Source: Gammaproteobacteria bacterium
GTDB taxonomy: Bacteria > Pseudomonadota > Gammaproteobacteria > Pseudomonadales > Pseudohongiellaceae
Direction: 5' to 3'
DNA length: 39,912 nt
NCBI GenBank assembly: GCA_002729315.1
Contig: PBTW01000068.1
Span: forward strand, 1 to 39,912
The notes beneath the pieces are model-generated. The model did not search any database. It was not told the origin of the DNA and worked only from the letters and a program-made list of their open reading frames with translations. Shown piece by piece: positions 28,633 through 33,833 of the stretch (the first letter of the stretch is position 1; each line of letters begins with the position of its first letter). A program made the position numbers and the translations under genes.

Positions 28633-29625
28633 GTGGTTTACGAGCCTGAACATCCGTTTGCCACACTGACGCCAGATCGGGTTCTAGCTGCTGTCGAGTC
28701 CCTTGGCTTCAACACGGACGCCCGCTTTTTCGCTCTAAATAGTTATGAAAATCGGGTCTATCAGATCGGCCTGCTCGATGGGACCAGTCTTATTGCGAAA
28801 TTTTACAGGCCCGGCCGATGGGAGGCTCGGCAAATTCGCGAAGAGCACGCCTTTACTCAGGAGTTGTTCGATCTGGAAATACCTGTCGTCCCGCCCATGA
28901 AGCTGGAGAGCACTAGAACGCATGTTAAGGTTGATGGCTTTGAGCTTGCGTTGTTTCCGCAGCTCATCGGTCGGACTCCAGAGCTTGATGATCTGGGCAG
29001 CCTGTTCACGATGGGCAGATTTGTCGCCCGAATCCACGCCGTAGGATCTCAGAGCAACTTCGACTTTCGGGAGCACATCAGTCTTGATACAGCGATACGG
29101 AGTAGCCGTTATCTGCTTGAGAAAGACTTCCTACCGGCTGACCTGATTACCGCGTACGAAACTCTCATGCGCGATCTGTTCGACAGGATGTCAGAACAGC
29201 TTGCGTCAGCAGGCGATTGGCGATCGCTGCGGATCCATGGTGACTGTCATCTGGGGAACGTTTTATGGCGCGAGGGTATTCCGCACTTTGTTGATTTTGA
29301 TGACACGTTGATGGGGCCCGCAATACAGGATTTATGGATGCTGCTTTCTGGAGATCGAGAACACAGGCAGGCGCAATTGCTCGAGCTAGTCGAAGGGTAC
29401 AATGAGTTTTACGACTTCAGGGTGAGCGAACTAGCGCTGATCGAAATCCTGCGTACTATGCGCCTCATTAATTACAGTGCGTGGCTCGCTAGACGCTGGA
29501 CCGATCCTGCTTTTCCCCTAAACTTTCCCTGGTTCAATACCCAGAGATTCTGGTCAGATCATATCCTGGAACTGCGTGAGCAGATTGCTGCCCTTGACGA
29601 GCCGCCCCTACAGCTCGTTCAATAA
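28633..29625 (+). CDS. srkA: stress response Ser/Thr kinase SrkA (YihE/RdoA)
   Basis: SrkA is a cytoplasmic choline-kinase-fold protein kinase that protects against stress-induced programmed death in E. coli. The 330 residues align along the whole length with E. coli SrkA (328), sharing LNSYENRVYQ, the ATP-site lysine in IAKFYRPGRWEA (K56), the catalytic HGDCHLGNVLWR (H202-G-D204), the metal-binding VDFDD (220-224) and DPAFPLNFPWF. The start is GTG at 28633. In E. coli the gene is followed by dsbA; here the convergent apbE-like gene lies 2 bases away instead. Confidence 0.95.
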   Translation: MVYEPEHPFATLTPDRVLAAVESLGFNTDARFFALNSYENRVYQIGLLDGTSLIAKFYRPGRWEARQIREEHAFTQELFDLEIPVVPPMKLESTRTHVKVDGFELALFPQLIGRTPELDDLGSLFTMGRFVARIHAVGSQSNFDFREHISLDTAIRSSRYLLEKDFLPADLITAYETLMRDLFDRMSEQLASAGDWRSLRIHGDCHLGNVLWREGIPHFVDFDDTLMGPAIQDLWMLLSGDREHRQAQLLELVEGYNEFYDFRVSELALIEILRTMRLINYSAWLARRWTDPAFPLNFPWFNTQRFWSDHILELREQIAALDEPPLQLVQ

Positions 29626-29627
29626 CT

Positions 29628-30533
29628 TCAGTTTGCGAGGCCCGCTCCGCCGATTTGCCCGGCGCCGTCCATAAAAACGAACGGTAGTCCGGATTCTGTC
29701 AGCCAGTTTAAAGCATCCTGCTCTTGCTTCAGCATGGCGATTGTTGCGAAGGATCCTGCAACCGTGCATAGATTCGCTGAAACGCTTACAGCTCTCAGTC
29801 CTGCGCAGGGCCAGCCTGTTGTGGGGTTTAACAGATGGCTGTAACGTTTTCCATCAAATATGAAAGAACGCTCATAATCACCAGAAGACGCCAGACCACC
29901 TTCAGATAAATGAAAATGTGATATAGTTTTCGTTGGGTCTTCCGGGTGGGTGATGCCTATCGGCCAGGGTCGATTTTCCGGCTGCAATCCGATTGCAGCG
30001 AAGTCGCCCCCAAGATTGATCAGACCGCGCTTGACGCCGAGCTCCCGAGCCAGGTTGGCCAGACTGTCCGCGGCATATTCCTTTACAATGCCACCAAAAT
30101 CAATTTCCATATTCTCTGGTAGGAATAGTATATCGTCATGCCAGTTAAGCCTTTCTTGCCCAATTAGTGGTAAAAGCTCTTGAAGCTCGGATTCGTCGGG
30201 TATCCGTTTGCGACTGAAATCCCAAGCTCGACGCAGAACTCCCGCAGTGATATCAAATAGCCCGTCGCTCTGTTCATAGCAGGTCTGCGCATGTTCAAAA
30301 AGCTTCTGAGTCTCGACATCTATTTTAATGCCAGTCTGATCGCCCGCACTGCGGTTGATTTTGCTGAGAAAACTGTCGTCTCGGTAGCGCGTGTATTTGC
30401 TCTCTAGCCGGTTGACCTCGCCAATCAGTCGTCGAACCATTCTCTTGGCTCTGATTCGAGACGGTTCGTAAAGCTGAATCTCGCAGTAGGTTCCCATTGC
30501 CTTGAATCCTGCATGGCGCAGATTGGTGCTCAT
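29628..30533 (-). CDS. ApbE-like FAD:protein FMN transferase, leaderless and with altered metal site
   Basis: ApbE enzymes move FMN from FAD onto Thr/Ser of redox proteins, normally in the periplasm. The 301-residue protein shows the FKAMGTYCEIQLY start, NRLESKYTRYRDDSFLSKIN (41-60), GLFDITAGVLRRAWDF (91-106), INLGGDFAAIG and the FAD-side SGDYERSF ... HLLNPTTGWP. Two oddities stand out. No signal peptide or lipobox is present, and a TAA lies in frame a few codons before the ATG. In addition, the usual C-terminal metal motif (A-D-A-L-x-T) reads A-G260-S-F-A-T264, so the Mg-binding Asp is missing while the Thr is kept. It is last in the TlpA-DUF4266-DUF3570-ApbE operon, 15 bases after DUF3570. 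Confidence 0.9.
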   Translation of the reverse strand: MSTNLRHAGFKAMGTYCEIQLYEPSRIRAKRMVRRLIGEVNRLESKYTRYRDDSFLSKINRSAGDQTGIKIDVETQKLFEHAQTCYEQSDGLFDITAGVLRRAWDFSRKRIPDESELQELLPLIGQERLNWHDDILFLPENMEIDFGGIVKEYAADSLANLARELGVKRGLINLGGDFAAIGLQPENRPWPIGITHPEDPTKTISHFHLSEGGLASSGDYERSFIFDGKRYSHLLNPTTGWPCAGLRAVSVSANLCTVAGSFATIAMLKQEQDALNWLTESGLPFVFMDGAGQIGGAGLAN

Positions 30534-30548
30534 CGCTTTTCCATGCGG

Positions 30549-31706
30549 TTAGAACGCGTAATTCACGCCGAGCGATAGTCGGGTGAACTGGACCAGCCCT
30601 GGGCTGGGTTGATCGACGGTGAAAGCCGAGTACTTTTCATTAGCTACGTAACGTTCGGCGGTAAGAGTCGCGCTCCACCCACCAAAATCCGCGACTACGC
30701 TCAGGCCTCCGCTGACGGCACCGAATGCCGACAGTCGATAATCGCTGGACTGACTCTCAGACAGCGGCTTCAGGAAATCATCAATATTTGTATAAAAGTC
30801 GGCGGCAGTCTGACTGTAATAGCGGAGCATCGGAACGATTTTGAGTGACCGTGTTACGTTCTGGAACCAAGACAGATCGAGCGTGTGGGAACGAATGCCA
30901 AAATCGTCCCGATAATAACGATAGTCGCTCTGCAGTGCGCCATCTGCCTCGATAAAGAAATAGCGCAGTGAATTCGCAAACGCAATTTGGGTCTTTTCAT
31001 CTGGCCTGCTGTCCTGAAGTTTGTATGGATCAGATAAAAAGCCCGATTGCCCGGTCAGACTCAGTGCCGTCTGGAAACTGGCAACTGGGTTCAGCACCTG
31101 GCTCAAACTCACTGCCACCGAGCTTGCACGCTTGTTCTCATAACGCACGCGATTAAAGCGCTCAGCATCGCTGGGAAAGATGCTGTCATCAGAATGACTC
31201 AGACTCACTGTCAGAGTAGTCAAATCATTGTTGAAGTTCCGTGAGCCGCTCATGCTGACGTATTTAGCACGGTAGTCATTTTCCTCCGAGTAGCCAATGG
31301 CTCCACCGATATTCCCGCGTGTGCCATAGTACCGAGCACCAATGCTGACCTCGCTCCTAGAATCGTAGATGCCGCTTGCTCCGCTCATGTTGATCACCGG
31401 CTGTCCGTTGGTGCCTGCTGTCGAGAACCATGGAGAAGCGCCGCTCATATTTTCATGATTCGCGTTTATGAATAGCGCATAGTCACGACCAAGCGGAGAA
31501 ATAAATTGAAATTGATGGACGTCGATGTCGTATCGCTCGAGTTCGCCGAATGGAACCTGTTCCCGACTTAGTTCATCTTCCTGATAGTTCGAAATCTTAT
31601 AAGAAAGTGAAGACGTTAAGGGCGGCGCATCAGCCTCGGCGATGCCGGGCAGTGCAAGGGCCGAAGTGGACAAAGCGATTAGGCTGCGTGACGCGGGTTT
31701 TTTCAA
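30549..31706 (-). CDS. DUF3570 family outer-membrane beta-barrel protein
   Basis: The 385-residue protein has a signal peptide ending near AEA-DAP (residue 26) and a mature part full of alternating hydrophobic/aromatic strands, such as YFFIEADGALQSDYRYYRDD. It ends in an aromatic YAF, the C-terminal signature for BAM insertion, and an outer-membrane barrel of about 16-18 strands is likely. It matches the DUF3570 family, which has no established function. The start is TTG at 31706, with a GAGG ribosome site 7 bases before it (31714-31717). It lies between the DUF4266 lipoprotein (41-base gap) and the ApbE-like gene. Confidence 0.88.
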   Translation of the reverse strand: MKKPASRSLIALSTSALALPGIAEADAPPLTSSLSYKISNYQEDELSREQVPFGELERYDIDVHQFQFISPLGRDYALFINANHENMSGASPWFSTAGTNGQPVINMSGASGIYDSRSEVSIGARYYGTRGNIGGAIGYSEENDYRAKYVSMSGSRNFNNDLTTLTVSLSHSDDSIFPSDAERFNRVRYENKRASSVAVSLSQVLNPVASFQTALSLTGQSGFLSDPYKLQDSRPDEKTQIAFANSLRYFFIEADGALQSDYRYYRDDFGIRSHTLDLSWFQNVTRSLKIVPMLRYYSQTAADFYTNIDDFLKPLSESQSSDYRLSAFGAVSGGLSVVADFGGWSATLTAERYVANEKYSAFTVDQPSPGLVQFTRLSLGVNYAF

Positions 31707-31747
31707 AGGGAGACCTCAATGGTCGGAAGGCCGGCGAGCCCTGAAAA

Positions 31748-31975
31748 CTAGTTGCATCCGCAACCGCCGCCGGCGGCGATGTTGCCACCTGAGGAGGCTT
31801 CTTTACTGAAAAAAATATGGTCGTTAAGAGCGCGTTCCATAGGGTCGCTGTCCCAGGCCATTTCCTGTTTAGCCAGGTAGCCACGCTCCCAGGGCTGAAC
31901 CTGACTGCAGCCAGTGAGTACTCCAAGCGTGATCAGGGCCATCATCAGTGGTTTCATAACAGCATACCGATTCAT
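31748..31975 (-). CDS. DUF4266 small lipoprotein with C-terminal CGCN tail
   Basis: The 75-residue protein has a signal peptide with lipobox LTGC (Cys23), so the mature lipoprotein is only 53 residues. The family core WERGYLAKQEMAWD (29-42) is followed by DPMERALNDHIFFSKEAS, then a Gly-rich tail ending in GGGCGCN with C72 and C74. Two Cys in a CxC arrangement at the very C-terminus, next to a thioredoxin-like gene, suggest a redox or metal-binding tail. That is inference. The canonical ApbE flavinylation motif is not obvious. Its ATG overlaps the tlpA-like stop by 4 bases (31972-31975). Confidence 0.88.
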   Translation of the reverse strand: MNRYAVMKPLMMALITLGVLTGCSQVQPWERGYLAKQEMAWDSDPMERALNDHIFFSKEASSGGNIAAGGGCGCN

Positions 31976-32478
31976 TCTGGCAGGTTAGAGACGATCGCGG
32001 CTTCGATCACCTCCATGTCTGTTGGTCGAAACCCCATATGCACCATTTTGACTTCGCCATCAGGTCCGATCAGGTAGGAGGATGGCATGCCGATGACACT
32101 GAACTGTGTCGCCATATCTCCCTCAGGGTCTGAAGGGATAAGAAAATCTAGGGGAGTGTCCAGCAAGAAATCCAGTCCATCTTCAATAGGGTTGTCCACA
32201 TTAATGGCTACTACTACGAGTCCCTGATCCCGATATTTGTTGTACAGGTCGTTGTAGAGCGGTAACGAGGTCAGGCAAGGGGCGCACCAAGACGCCCAGA
32301 AGTCCACGTAAACGGTTTTACCCGGCATGTTGGCCAGTGCAATTACCGGTTGATCCGCGTAGATTGACGGGAGAGCAAAGTCCGGAGCAGGGTCGCCCTC
32401 TTCAACGGCATGGGCTAGGCCGACTAGTGCGCTCGCCACGAGGCCCAGCGCTATCGTCAGAAAACCTTTGTTCATCAT
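31972..32478 (-). CDS. TlpA-family periplasmic thioredoxin-like oxidoreductase
   Basis: The 168-residue protein has a signal peptide (cleavage near AHA-VEE, residue 24) and a thioredoxin fold with active site W64-C65-A-P-C68 in DFWASWCAPCLTSLP and the cis-Pro segment GMPSSYLI. TlpA/ResA-type proteins usually reduce disulfides of cytochrome or copper-site partners. The first gene of a four-gene operon, it is likely to act on the Cys-containing DUF4266 lipoprotein encoded next; that is inference. Two tandem ATGs are possible; the second (32475) has the better spacing from a strong AAGGAGT ribosome site. Confidence 0.9.
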   Translation of the reverse strand: MMNKGFLTIALGLVASALVGLAHAVEEGDPAPDFALPSIYADQPVIALANMPGKTVYVDFWASWCAPCLTSLPLYNDLYNKYRDQGLVVVAINVDNPIEDGLDFLLDTPLDFLIPSDPEGDMATQFSVIGMPSSYLIGPDGEVKMVHMGFRPTDMEVIEAAIVSNLPE

Positions 32479-32482
32479 TGTG

Positions 32483-32489
32483 ACTCCTT
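32483..32489 (-). promoter_or_regulatory. strong Shine-Dalgarno of the TlpA-DUF4266-DUF3570-ApbE operon
   Basis: On the minus strand AAGGAGT lies 4 bases before the first and 7 bases before the second of two tandem ATG codons. The spacing favours the second ATG (32475) as the start of the TlpA-like protein. It is the best ribosome site in the region and suggests high expression of the first operon gene. Confidence 0.7.
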
Positions 32490-32687: not shown

Positions 32688-33833
32688 CTAGGCAGCGGTC
32701 GCCATAACGGAGTGGAGACTCCGCAGCAATTCATGCCATCGCTTGCGTTGAATTTTCAGCGCAAATTTCAGTTCCACATAGCTGTCACGCAGTTCCATCC
32801 GCTCCCACTGCGCAAGCGTTTCTTGGAGACGCTTCTCCCGCGCTTCGAGCCATTTTTGCCGGGTCGCATTCCATTCTTTTAGCAGTTGCTGGAATTGTTG
32901 ATACTCCTGCTCCAGTTTTGCTCGGAGGTTGTCCGGGATGTCGCGAAACTCGAATTGTTCCCGTGCTCGCTGGTACTGCATTTGTAATCTTGCTGTTTCT
33001 ACGCGGGCAGGATCGGTCCTTTTCAGGTCTGTGGTCAGACCCACGCAGGATAAACTGCGAATCATCCATTTTGTGGGATCGAAGTGCCACCATTTGACCC
33101 CATTGCGATAATCCCACTGGAACGTGTGGTGATAGTTGTGATACCCCTCACCATAGGTGATGAGTGCCAGCAGTGGGTTATCCCGCGCCGAACTGGCGTC
33201 GCTGTAAGTTTGTTTGCCCCACATGTGTGCAATCGAGTTGATCAGGTAAGTCACATGCTGGCTCATCACCAGTCGGAGTAACCCCCCAAGGAGAAGGCAA
33301 GCGATAATGTCGCCGTGGAGGAAGCCCAAAAATGCTGGGAGCCCGATGTTGGTAAGCAGCACAAGAAGTAGATAATGCTGATGCTGCCAGAGCGCTATCT
33401 TGTCCTGCTGGATGTCCTTGATATTTGAAAAGTCCTCTTTCCCGCTGTCATAGTGACGCAGAATCCAACCGATATGGGAAAACCAGAAACCTCTGCCAGC
33501 GGAGTATGGATCGAGATCATTCTGATCAACATGGCGGTGGTGGCGGCGATGATCCGAGGCCCAGTGCATAACGTCATTCTGCAAAGCACAGGCTCCTCCG
33601 AGTGCGAAGATCAATCTGAGAAAAGGGTGTCCCTTGTAAGCTTTGTGAGACCACATGCGGTGGTATCCGGCGGTAATCGACAGGCCGCAAAAGAGCATCA
33701 TGCCGAGAAAGACCAGCCACTCGTAAAGATCGTAACCGTCGAGATAGCCGTAAAGTGGAACCAGAATGACAGCCAGCAGCGGTGTCAGGCTGAACAGCAG
33801 CATATTTGTCAAGTTAATTGGTGCTTTTTCCAT
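32688..33833 (-). CDS. acyl-lipid/acyl-CoA delta-9-type fatty acid desaturase
   Basis: This is a membrane di-iron desaturase that introduces a double bond into fatty acyl chains, aiding membrane fluidity. The 381-residue protein has four hydrophobic helices and the three His boxes: H58-RMWS-H63, H95-RRHH99 and HNYHH near residue 232. Residues from about 275 onward form a long charged, Gln/Glu/Arg-rich helix (LEQEYQQFQQLL, QKWLEAREKRLQETLAQW) that looks like a coiled coil, beyond the catalytic core. The gene is separated from the TlpA-like gene downstream by 209 bp with no ORF of note. It is divergent from slyX. Confidence 0.92.
   Translation of the reverse strand: MEKAPINLTNMLLFSLTPLLAVILVPLYGYLDGYDLYEWLVFLGMMLFCGLSITAGYHRMWSHKAYKGHPFLRLIFALGGACALQNDVMHWASDHRRHHRHVDQNDLDPYSAGRGFWFSHIGWILRHYDSGKEDFSNIKDIQQDKIALWQHQHYLLLVLLTNIGLPAFLGFLHGDIIACLLLGGLLRLVMSQHVTYLINSIAHMWGKQTYSDASSARDNPLLALITYGEGYHNYHHTFQWDYRNGVKWWHFDPTKWMIRSLSCVGLTTDLKRTDPARVETARLQMQYQRAREQFEFRDIPDNLRAKLEQEYQQFQQLLKEWNATRQKWLEAREKRLQETLAQWERMELRDSYVELKFALKIQRKRWHELLRSLHSVMATAA

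Follow-up and report, generated by a model that had tools for sequence, protein, structure and literature searches.

Gene clusters in which DUF3570 is a substrate of the flavin transferase ApbE, at two [S/T]GA[S/T] motifs, were reported by Meheust et al. in 2021 (PMC8238504; this and the other articles are cited for the portions of their text that were available). Clusters with DsbD (227) and four-gene clusters without it (316) were counted separately there, and the CxC of DUF4266 was suggested as possibly cycling. The evidence for flavinylation in Chlorobium luteolum was co-expression and serine replacement: DUF3570, cloned without its signal peptide according to the stated strategy, was co-expressed with its cognate ApbE in Escherichia coli, and the recombinant protein was mostly in the pellet, was purified in 6 M guanidine, and still bore flavin (PMC8238504). 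Because this largely insoluble protein was flavinylated, ApbE seemingly needs no folded barrel and can act in the cytosol. In this study, an operon was analyzed in a 39,912-nucleotide stretch of gammaproteobacterial DNA (contig PBTW01000068.1, assembly GCA_002729315.1), hereafter called the window. The operon is a further case of the described cluster, with the same four families, the two [S/T]GA[S/T] sites, and the CxC tail of DUF4266; it is of the kind without DsbD alongside and, being of a kind already described in 2021, is ordinary as a cluster. Its thioredoxin matches Redoxin, AhpC-TSA, and Thioredoxin_8, whereas PF13899 is named in PMC8238504.

For two features of the operon, a dedicated ApbE without a signal and flavin sites that appear to face outward, no published account was found as far as the literature searches reach. 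Full-text searching for DUF4266 and DUF3570 by name or Pfam number found nothing besides PMC8238504, the available main text of which contains neither "cytosolic ApbE" nor "barrel", and the word DUF3570 was not found by full-text search in the available text of a 2024 follow-up (PMC11334425). An article on disulfide reduction in Shewanella (PMC10986466) was, in its available part, unrelated to this module.

The features of the operon, in operon order, are as follows (FMN, flavin mononucleotide, a flavin derived from vitamin B2; FAD, flavin adenine dinucleotide; aa, amino acids).

32483..32489, minus strand: AAGGAGT, ribosome-binding site of the first gene (TlpA-like)
31972..32478, minus strand: exported TlpA/ResA-like thioredoxin, 168 aa, with WCAPC and a predicted N-terminal signal peptide (Pfam: Redoxin 2.9e-20, AhpC-TSA 5.4e-20, Thioredoxin_8 8e-15)
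31748..31975, minus strand: DUF4266 lipoprotein precursor, 75 aa (53 mature), lipobox LTGC (LTGCSQ) (PF14086, 1.4e-22)
31754..31762, minus strand: CGC (CxC) at the C-terminus of DUF4266, chain end GGGCGCN
30549..31706, minus strand: DUF3570 outer-membrane barrel, 385 aa, TTG start, predicted signal peptide (PF12094, 2.9e-58)
31434..31445, minus strand: first predicted FMN attachment motif, SGAS, DUF3570 residues 88-91
31374..31385, minus strand: second predicted FMN attachment motif, SGAS, DUF3570 residues 108-111
29628..30533, minus strand: ApbE-family FAD:protein FMN transferase, 301 aa, without a signal peptide (PF02424, 1.3e-72)

A preliminary description of this DNA had given the four genes on one strand, the intergenic spacings of -4, 41, and 15 bases, AAGGAGT, WCAPC, the 53-residue lipoprotein ending in GGGCGCN, and the barrel ending in YAF, all exactly; the two SGAS motifs of DUF3570 and the absence of a signal from ApbE were missed. 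Its statement that the module is uncharacterised, with no described function, does not hold, since the cluster and DUF3570 flavinylation have been in print since 2021 (PMC8238504). The whole module was also placed in the envelope, which is not supported for ApbE, as this enzyme lacks an export signal and is predicted to be cytosolic. The serine next to the lipobox cysteine of DUF4266 presumably means outer-membrane sorting by the usual rule. In an NCBIfam search, neither the DUF3570 barrel nor the DUF4266 lipoprotein was matched. No CxxCH was seen on reading the four operon proteins, and DsbD is not in the window cluster, the one DsbD_TM match of the genome lying elsewhere (G000:C2).

ApbE proteins linked to DUF3570

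In the window, the lone start codon ahead of the ApbE domain gives MSTNLRHAGFKAMGT, an in-frame stop lies 15 bases upstream, and the N-terminal signal or lipobox that is a classical feature of exported ApbEs is absent. The protein contains the stretch HLLNPTTG, and we take H-x-x-N-P-x-T-G to be characteristic of ApbE FMN transferases. ApbE matches were scored by the highest hydrophobicity over nine residues that any possible N-terminus could give, with candidate codons and not SignalP supplying the starts; one of 149 matches, lacking its N-terminus, was left out. The 108 ApbEs linked to DUF3570 had a median of 0.13, with 106 below 1.9 and two at or above it, and all 31 ApbEs away from DUF3570, controls drawn from the window's order only, scored at least 2.3. 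Nine of the 40 other ApbEs scored lower; these were second records of linked clusters or were adjacent to DUF3570 outside the linking rule, and two of them lay on the other strand. Of the two linked ApbEs scoring at least 1.9, that of L248 is hydrophobic solely from starts inside the DUF3570 gene and is a start-codon artefact; that of L141 has a signal-like hydrophobic N-terminus, and its barrel carries SSAS in place of SGAS.

The set was widened to 161 rows by adding 20 regions from the phylum to which L242, a genome titled Verrucomicrobia, belongs, two Hymenobacter plasmids, and one Vibrio plasmid, L341, L300, and L189 having two rows each. A readable linked ApbE was available for 130 site-bearing DUF3570 genes, and 128 of these ApbEs were without a signal, the others being L248 and L351; the site-bearing class here includes eight barrels of the L242 phylum with AGAT or VGAT, flavinylation being assumed to fall on the last residue of the motif. 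Both SSAS-type clusters with a readable linked ApbE had an exported one (L141, and L300 from Bacteroidota), and in a further SSAS-type cluster, L299, the N-terminus of ApbE fell outside the match with a hydrophobic stretch ahead. Site type and ApbE signal were associated (Fisher 6.9e-4, uncorrected for kinship).

In a tree of 86 ApbEs, one branch (support 100/94) parted 55 proteins without a signal from 31 with one; the sample held 55 of the 108 no-signal rows (every second row plus the window), L248 was labelled no-signal by hand, and the places of L141 and L160, on long branches, are unsure. At least two ApbE matches were present in 33 of 36 genomes with DUF3570 vs 1 of 22 without (Fisher 1.2e-11, uncorrected for kinship). 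In the window genome itself, another ApbE, at G000:C17, has a hydrophobic N-terminus, and there are two FMN_bind matches, so that the operon ApbE is probably not needed for FMN_bind proteins. These results strongly indicate that the window ApbE works in the cytosol and belongs to an ApbE group that is associated with DUF3570 and has no signal.

At four loci (L290-L293, in G036, G019, G015, and G026), a signal-less ApbE comes directly after a TlpA gene, and neither DUF4266 nor DUF3570 was matched within the 4 kb fetched; in each of these genomes, a DUF3570 locus is present on another contig.

Predicted flavin sites and topology of the DUF3570 barrel

SGAS at residues 88 and 108 makes the barrel, rather than the lipoprotein, the predicted carrier of flavin. 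The preliminary description had been right to make flavinylation part of the module, DUF3570 being a published ApbE substrate (PMC8238504); the carrier that it named is not supported: it considered the lipoprotein possibly flavinylated, whereas on reading its sequence the window DUF4266 has no [S/T]GA[S/T] motif, DUF3570 has two, and the C. luteolum substrate is DUF3570. By analogy, ApbE is predicted to attach FMN to both SGAS motifs of the window protein.

A signal peptide, amphipathic strands, and an aromatic last residue make DUF3570 a predicted outer-membrane barrel by its sequence; the window protein ends in NYAF, with Phe as the last residue, and 117 of 135 DUF3570 proteins have an aromatic residue there. 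An alternating-residue hydropathy profile, averaged over 72 DUF3570 sequences with strand numbers of our own reading, gave about 16 amphipathic strand-like segments. On average, insertions exceed one residue near the N-terminus and behind strands 3 (at two places), 7, 9, and 15, and strand 1 is followed by a long stretch with gaps; apart from the N-terminal one, all these insertions and the gapped stretch lie on one side. As the last strand ends in the periplasm, the insertion-rich side would be the outside. Both SGAS motifs fall in the interval from strand 3 to strand 4, which is on the outer side in this profile, and we infer that loop 2 carries both sites, either facing outward or within the outer half of the pore.

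No solved structure matched the DUF3570 profile at E up to 1. Export of a folded, flavin-loaded barrel by the twin-arginine (Tat) route was considered and rejected, the twin-arginine pattern being present in only 1 of 117 proteins. A genome-wide DNA pattern for the motif gave 706 and 715 matches vs 647 and 640 in the control and was thus uninformative.

Two DUF3570 frames (L119:5812-8685 and L156:5766-8504) are about 900 residues long and, past a His/Met-rich stretch, extend into a second part, for which a search with L156 gave no convincing Pfam match; these long frames resemble copper-related barrels.

Distribution, gene order, and neighbors

DUF3570 was found in 36 of 58 genomes (57 relatives plus that of the window), and DUF4266 in the same 36. 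In a phylum sample of 299 genomes, DUF3570 was present in 20 and DUF4266 in 21, one of these below the family cut-off. The phylum of L242 had DUF3570 in 21 of 194 genomes, three of which are not among the sources of the 20 added regions. Clusters were taken from 60 regions fetched from relatives and phylum-sample genomes and from a further 80 named loci, the best 80 of at least 422 confirmed. DUF4266 lay within 2.5 kb of 133 of 135 distinct DUF3570 genes, its presence being built into the 80 loci, which had been found by DUF4266, and the remaining two genes were at contig ends; a TlpA relative lay by 116 of the 135. The C-terminus was GCGC[NY] in 154 of 158 distinct DUF4266 open reading frames. 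The earlier idea of the lipoprotein as a redox carrier at the barrel may yet apply.

TlpA-DUF4266-DUF3570-ApbE was the commonest order among the 133 clusters laid out (two of 135, L238 and L245, were left out of the layout), and such conservation indicates that the arrangement is not due to chance. In the L242 phylum, the order was DUF3570-ApbE-TlpA-DUF4266 in 19 of 20 regions, and in the two Hymenobacter plasmids, it was thioredoxin-ApbE-DUF4266-DUF3570. The conserved order and the same phyletic pattern (36/58; 133/135) support the earlier proposal insofar as the four genes belong together. In neighbor scans of 40 proteins, no fifth partner was constant; beside some clusters are VIT1, DsbD, two-component systems, DUF1501 with PSCyt-type cytochromes, or HZS_alpha-like proteins. 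Among viral contigs, four stretches fitted a pattern, and none encoded a DUF3570 relative.

In the window, a convergent APH-family kinase gene (28633-29625) stops 2 bases from the ApbE stop, and a fatty acid desaturase gene (32688-33833) lies upstream on the same strand as the operon, as one also does in L214. L120 (G009:C47) is a third cluster copy in which DUF4266 is split over two frames and no ApbE is present in the fetched stretch; it looks like a decaying copy. A record titled as a Rickettsia typhi metagenome-assembled genome (L217) has a DUF3570 cluster whose ApbE groups among gammaproteobacterial ApbEs, and the title is probably wrong.

Proposed mechanism, rival explanations, and known systems

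The best explanation as a whole would be a flavinylated-barrel module with cytosolic loading and thiol-fed outward flavins, which we rate as about evenly poised between right and wrong. Going by the experiment on the relative, ApbE would attach FMN to the two SGAS motifs of the barrel. A signal-less, cytosolic ApbE implies that FMN is fixed ahead of export, so that the enzyme would load the unfolded DUF3570 precursor before Sec export and outer-membrane insertion, and the finished barrel may then hold both flavins in loop 2, outward or in the outer half of the pore. Electrons could pass from inner-membrane reducing power of the DsbD type to the TlpA-like thioredoxin and then to the DUF4266 CxC and the barrel flavins, which might reduce a surface acceptor, such as ferric iron or a small organic oxidant; the segment from thioredoxin through CxC lipoprotein to flavin is one that we infer. 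That a dedicated group of cytosolic ApbEs loads an outer-membrane protein before Sec and barrel assembly, that the covalently flavinylated chain crosses largely unfolded, and that the flavins form a thiol-fed, haem-free electron outlet on the outer face, is possible, and we would stop short of calling it probable. If true, cytosolic loading would, in this family, overturn the idea that envelope proteins are flavinylated outside the cytosol; no FAD export would be needed, and a chain with two bulky flavins would pass Sec and the barrel-assembly machine.

Several observations weigh against this explanation. All steps for this organism are predicted or inferred. The second window SGAS has no acidic residue three places ahead; strand count and sidedness derive from the hydropathy profile, in which strands 10 and 11 are separated by a two-column gap on the inner side. 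L351 combines SSAS at the first site with an SGAS 14 residues further along, inside the range holding all 133 strict motifs, and its ApbE has a signal; it is likely a true exception to the signal-less rule (were it classed as SSAS, 128 of 129 would be signal-less and 3 of 3 SSAS exported, Fisher 1.1e-5). For fifteen strict-motif barrels (9 away from contig ends, 6 at ends), no ApbE lies within 2.5 kb, and a more distant ApbE was located for only some of the 9; in G052 and G057, a site-bearing barrel without an adjoining ApbE is accompanied by a signal-less ApbE elsewhere in the genome (L285, L286). The first construct in PMC8238504 was a signal-peptide-truncated ApbE, with a similar strategy for C. 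luteolum, a wording in the available text by which the C. luteolum ApbE, ABB24423, may itself carry a signal. Eight SSAS-type barrels are without ApbE within 2.5 kb; the core thus persists without the usual flavin site, and flavin is not essential to it. Four thioredoxin-less clusters of the window's genus (L112, L130, L133, and L138) have a one-CxxCH protein upstream of DUF4266; the one searched, from L130, had no Pfam match. A CxxCH gene was found within 5 kb in 7 of 8 SSAS-type clusters having 2 kb of upstream sequence vs 19 of 108 SGAS clusters, some of the 19 being spurious, and this proximity suggests that haem may replace flavin or that the core has another task. Seven SSAS-type clusters (L141, L142, L144, L151, L170, L171, and L231) have nearby a protein of 817-962 residues with one to three CxxCH, and the two tested (L141 and L142, about 890 residues) match HZS_alpha, the hydrazine synthase alpha middle domain.

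It is conceivable, if unlikely, that the core of TlpA, DUF4266, and DUF3570 serves as a device that matures or exports other redox proteins of the surface, such as those with haem or metal, with flavin optional and the CxC lipoprotein and thioredoxin handling thiols or metal. The retention of the core in SSAS-type clusters, the CxxCH genes and HZS_alpha matches near them, and the L119 and L156 frames running on through a His/Met-rich stretch fit such a device; it is opposed by the lack, in most clusters, of a further gene constantly joined to the four and by the keeping of flavin site and signal-less ApbE in the large majority. We hold it rather improbable that FMN is added in the periplasm by an ApbE exported through an unknown or piggyback route, since FAD is made in the cytosol and 128 of 130 readable ApbEs linked to site-bearing barrels have no signal. 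Recombinant DUF3570 was, in addition, flavinylated in E. coli while largely insoluble (PMC8238504), and a cytosolic ApbE is known for Klebsiella fumarate reductase, even though characterised ApbEs are mostly exported lipoproteins and, for the Salmonella ApbE, periplasmic location is essential for thiamine-free growth (PMC12052999). The version of the preliminary description, with the DUF4266 lipoprotein as carrier of a flavin or metal cofactor, can hardly be credited: its conserved CxC tail could bind metal and its gene lies between those of the thioredoxin and the barrel, but the window DUF4266 has no [S/T]GA[S/T], and in a relative, ApbE has been proven to act on the barrel (PMC8238504).

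Compared with known systems, the cytosolic ApbE of Klebsiella pneumoniae, like that of the window, has no signal peptide (PMC12052999); its substrate is a soluble fumarate reductase, unlike the exported outer-membrane protein of the window. NqrC/RnfG-type flavinylation shares the enzyme family and the motif with the window and differs in having an exported ApbE lipoprotein and an FMN-binding domain (PMC12052999). Outward-loop flavins would, if true, offer a simple haem-free electron route to the cell surface. In the porin-cytochrome conduits (MtrCAB, PioAB), an outer-membrane barrel and a redox cofactor move electrons outward. The window likewise would combine a barrel with a redox cofactor that may carry electrons outward, but its operon has no haem protein, and the predicted flavin would be fixed to the barrel itself, so that the module may be a haem-free counterpart of these conduits.

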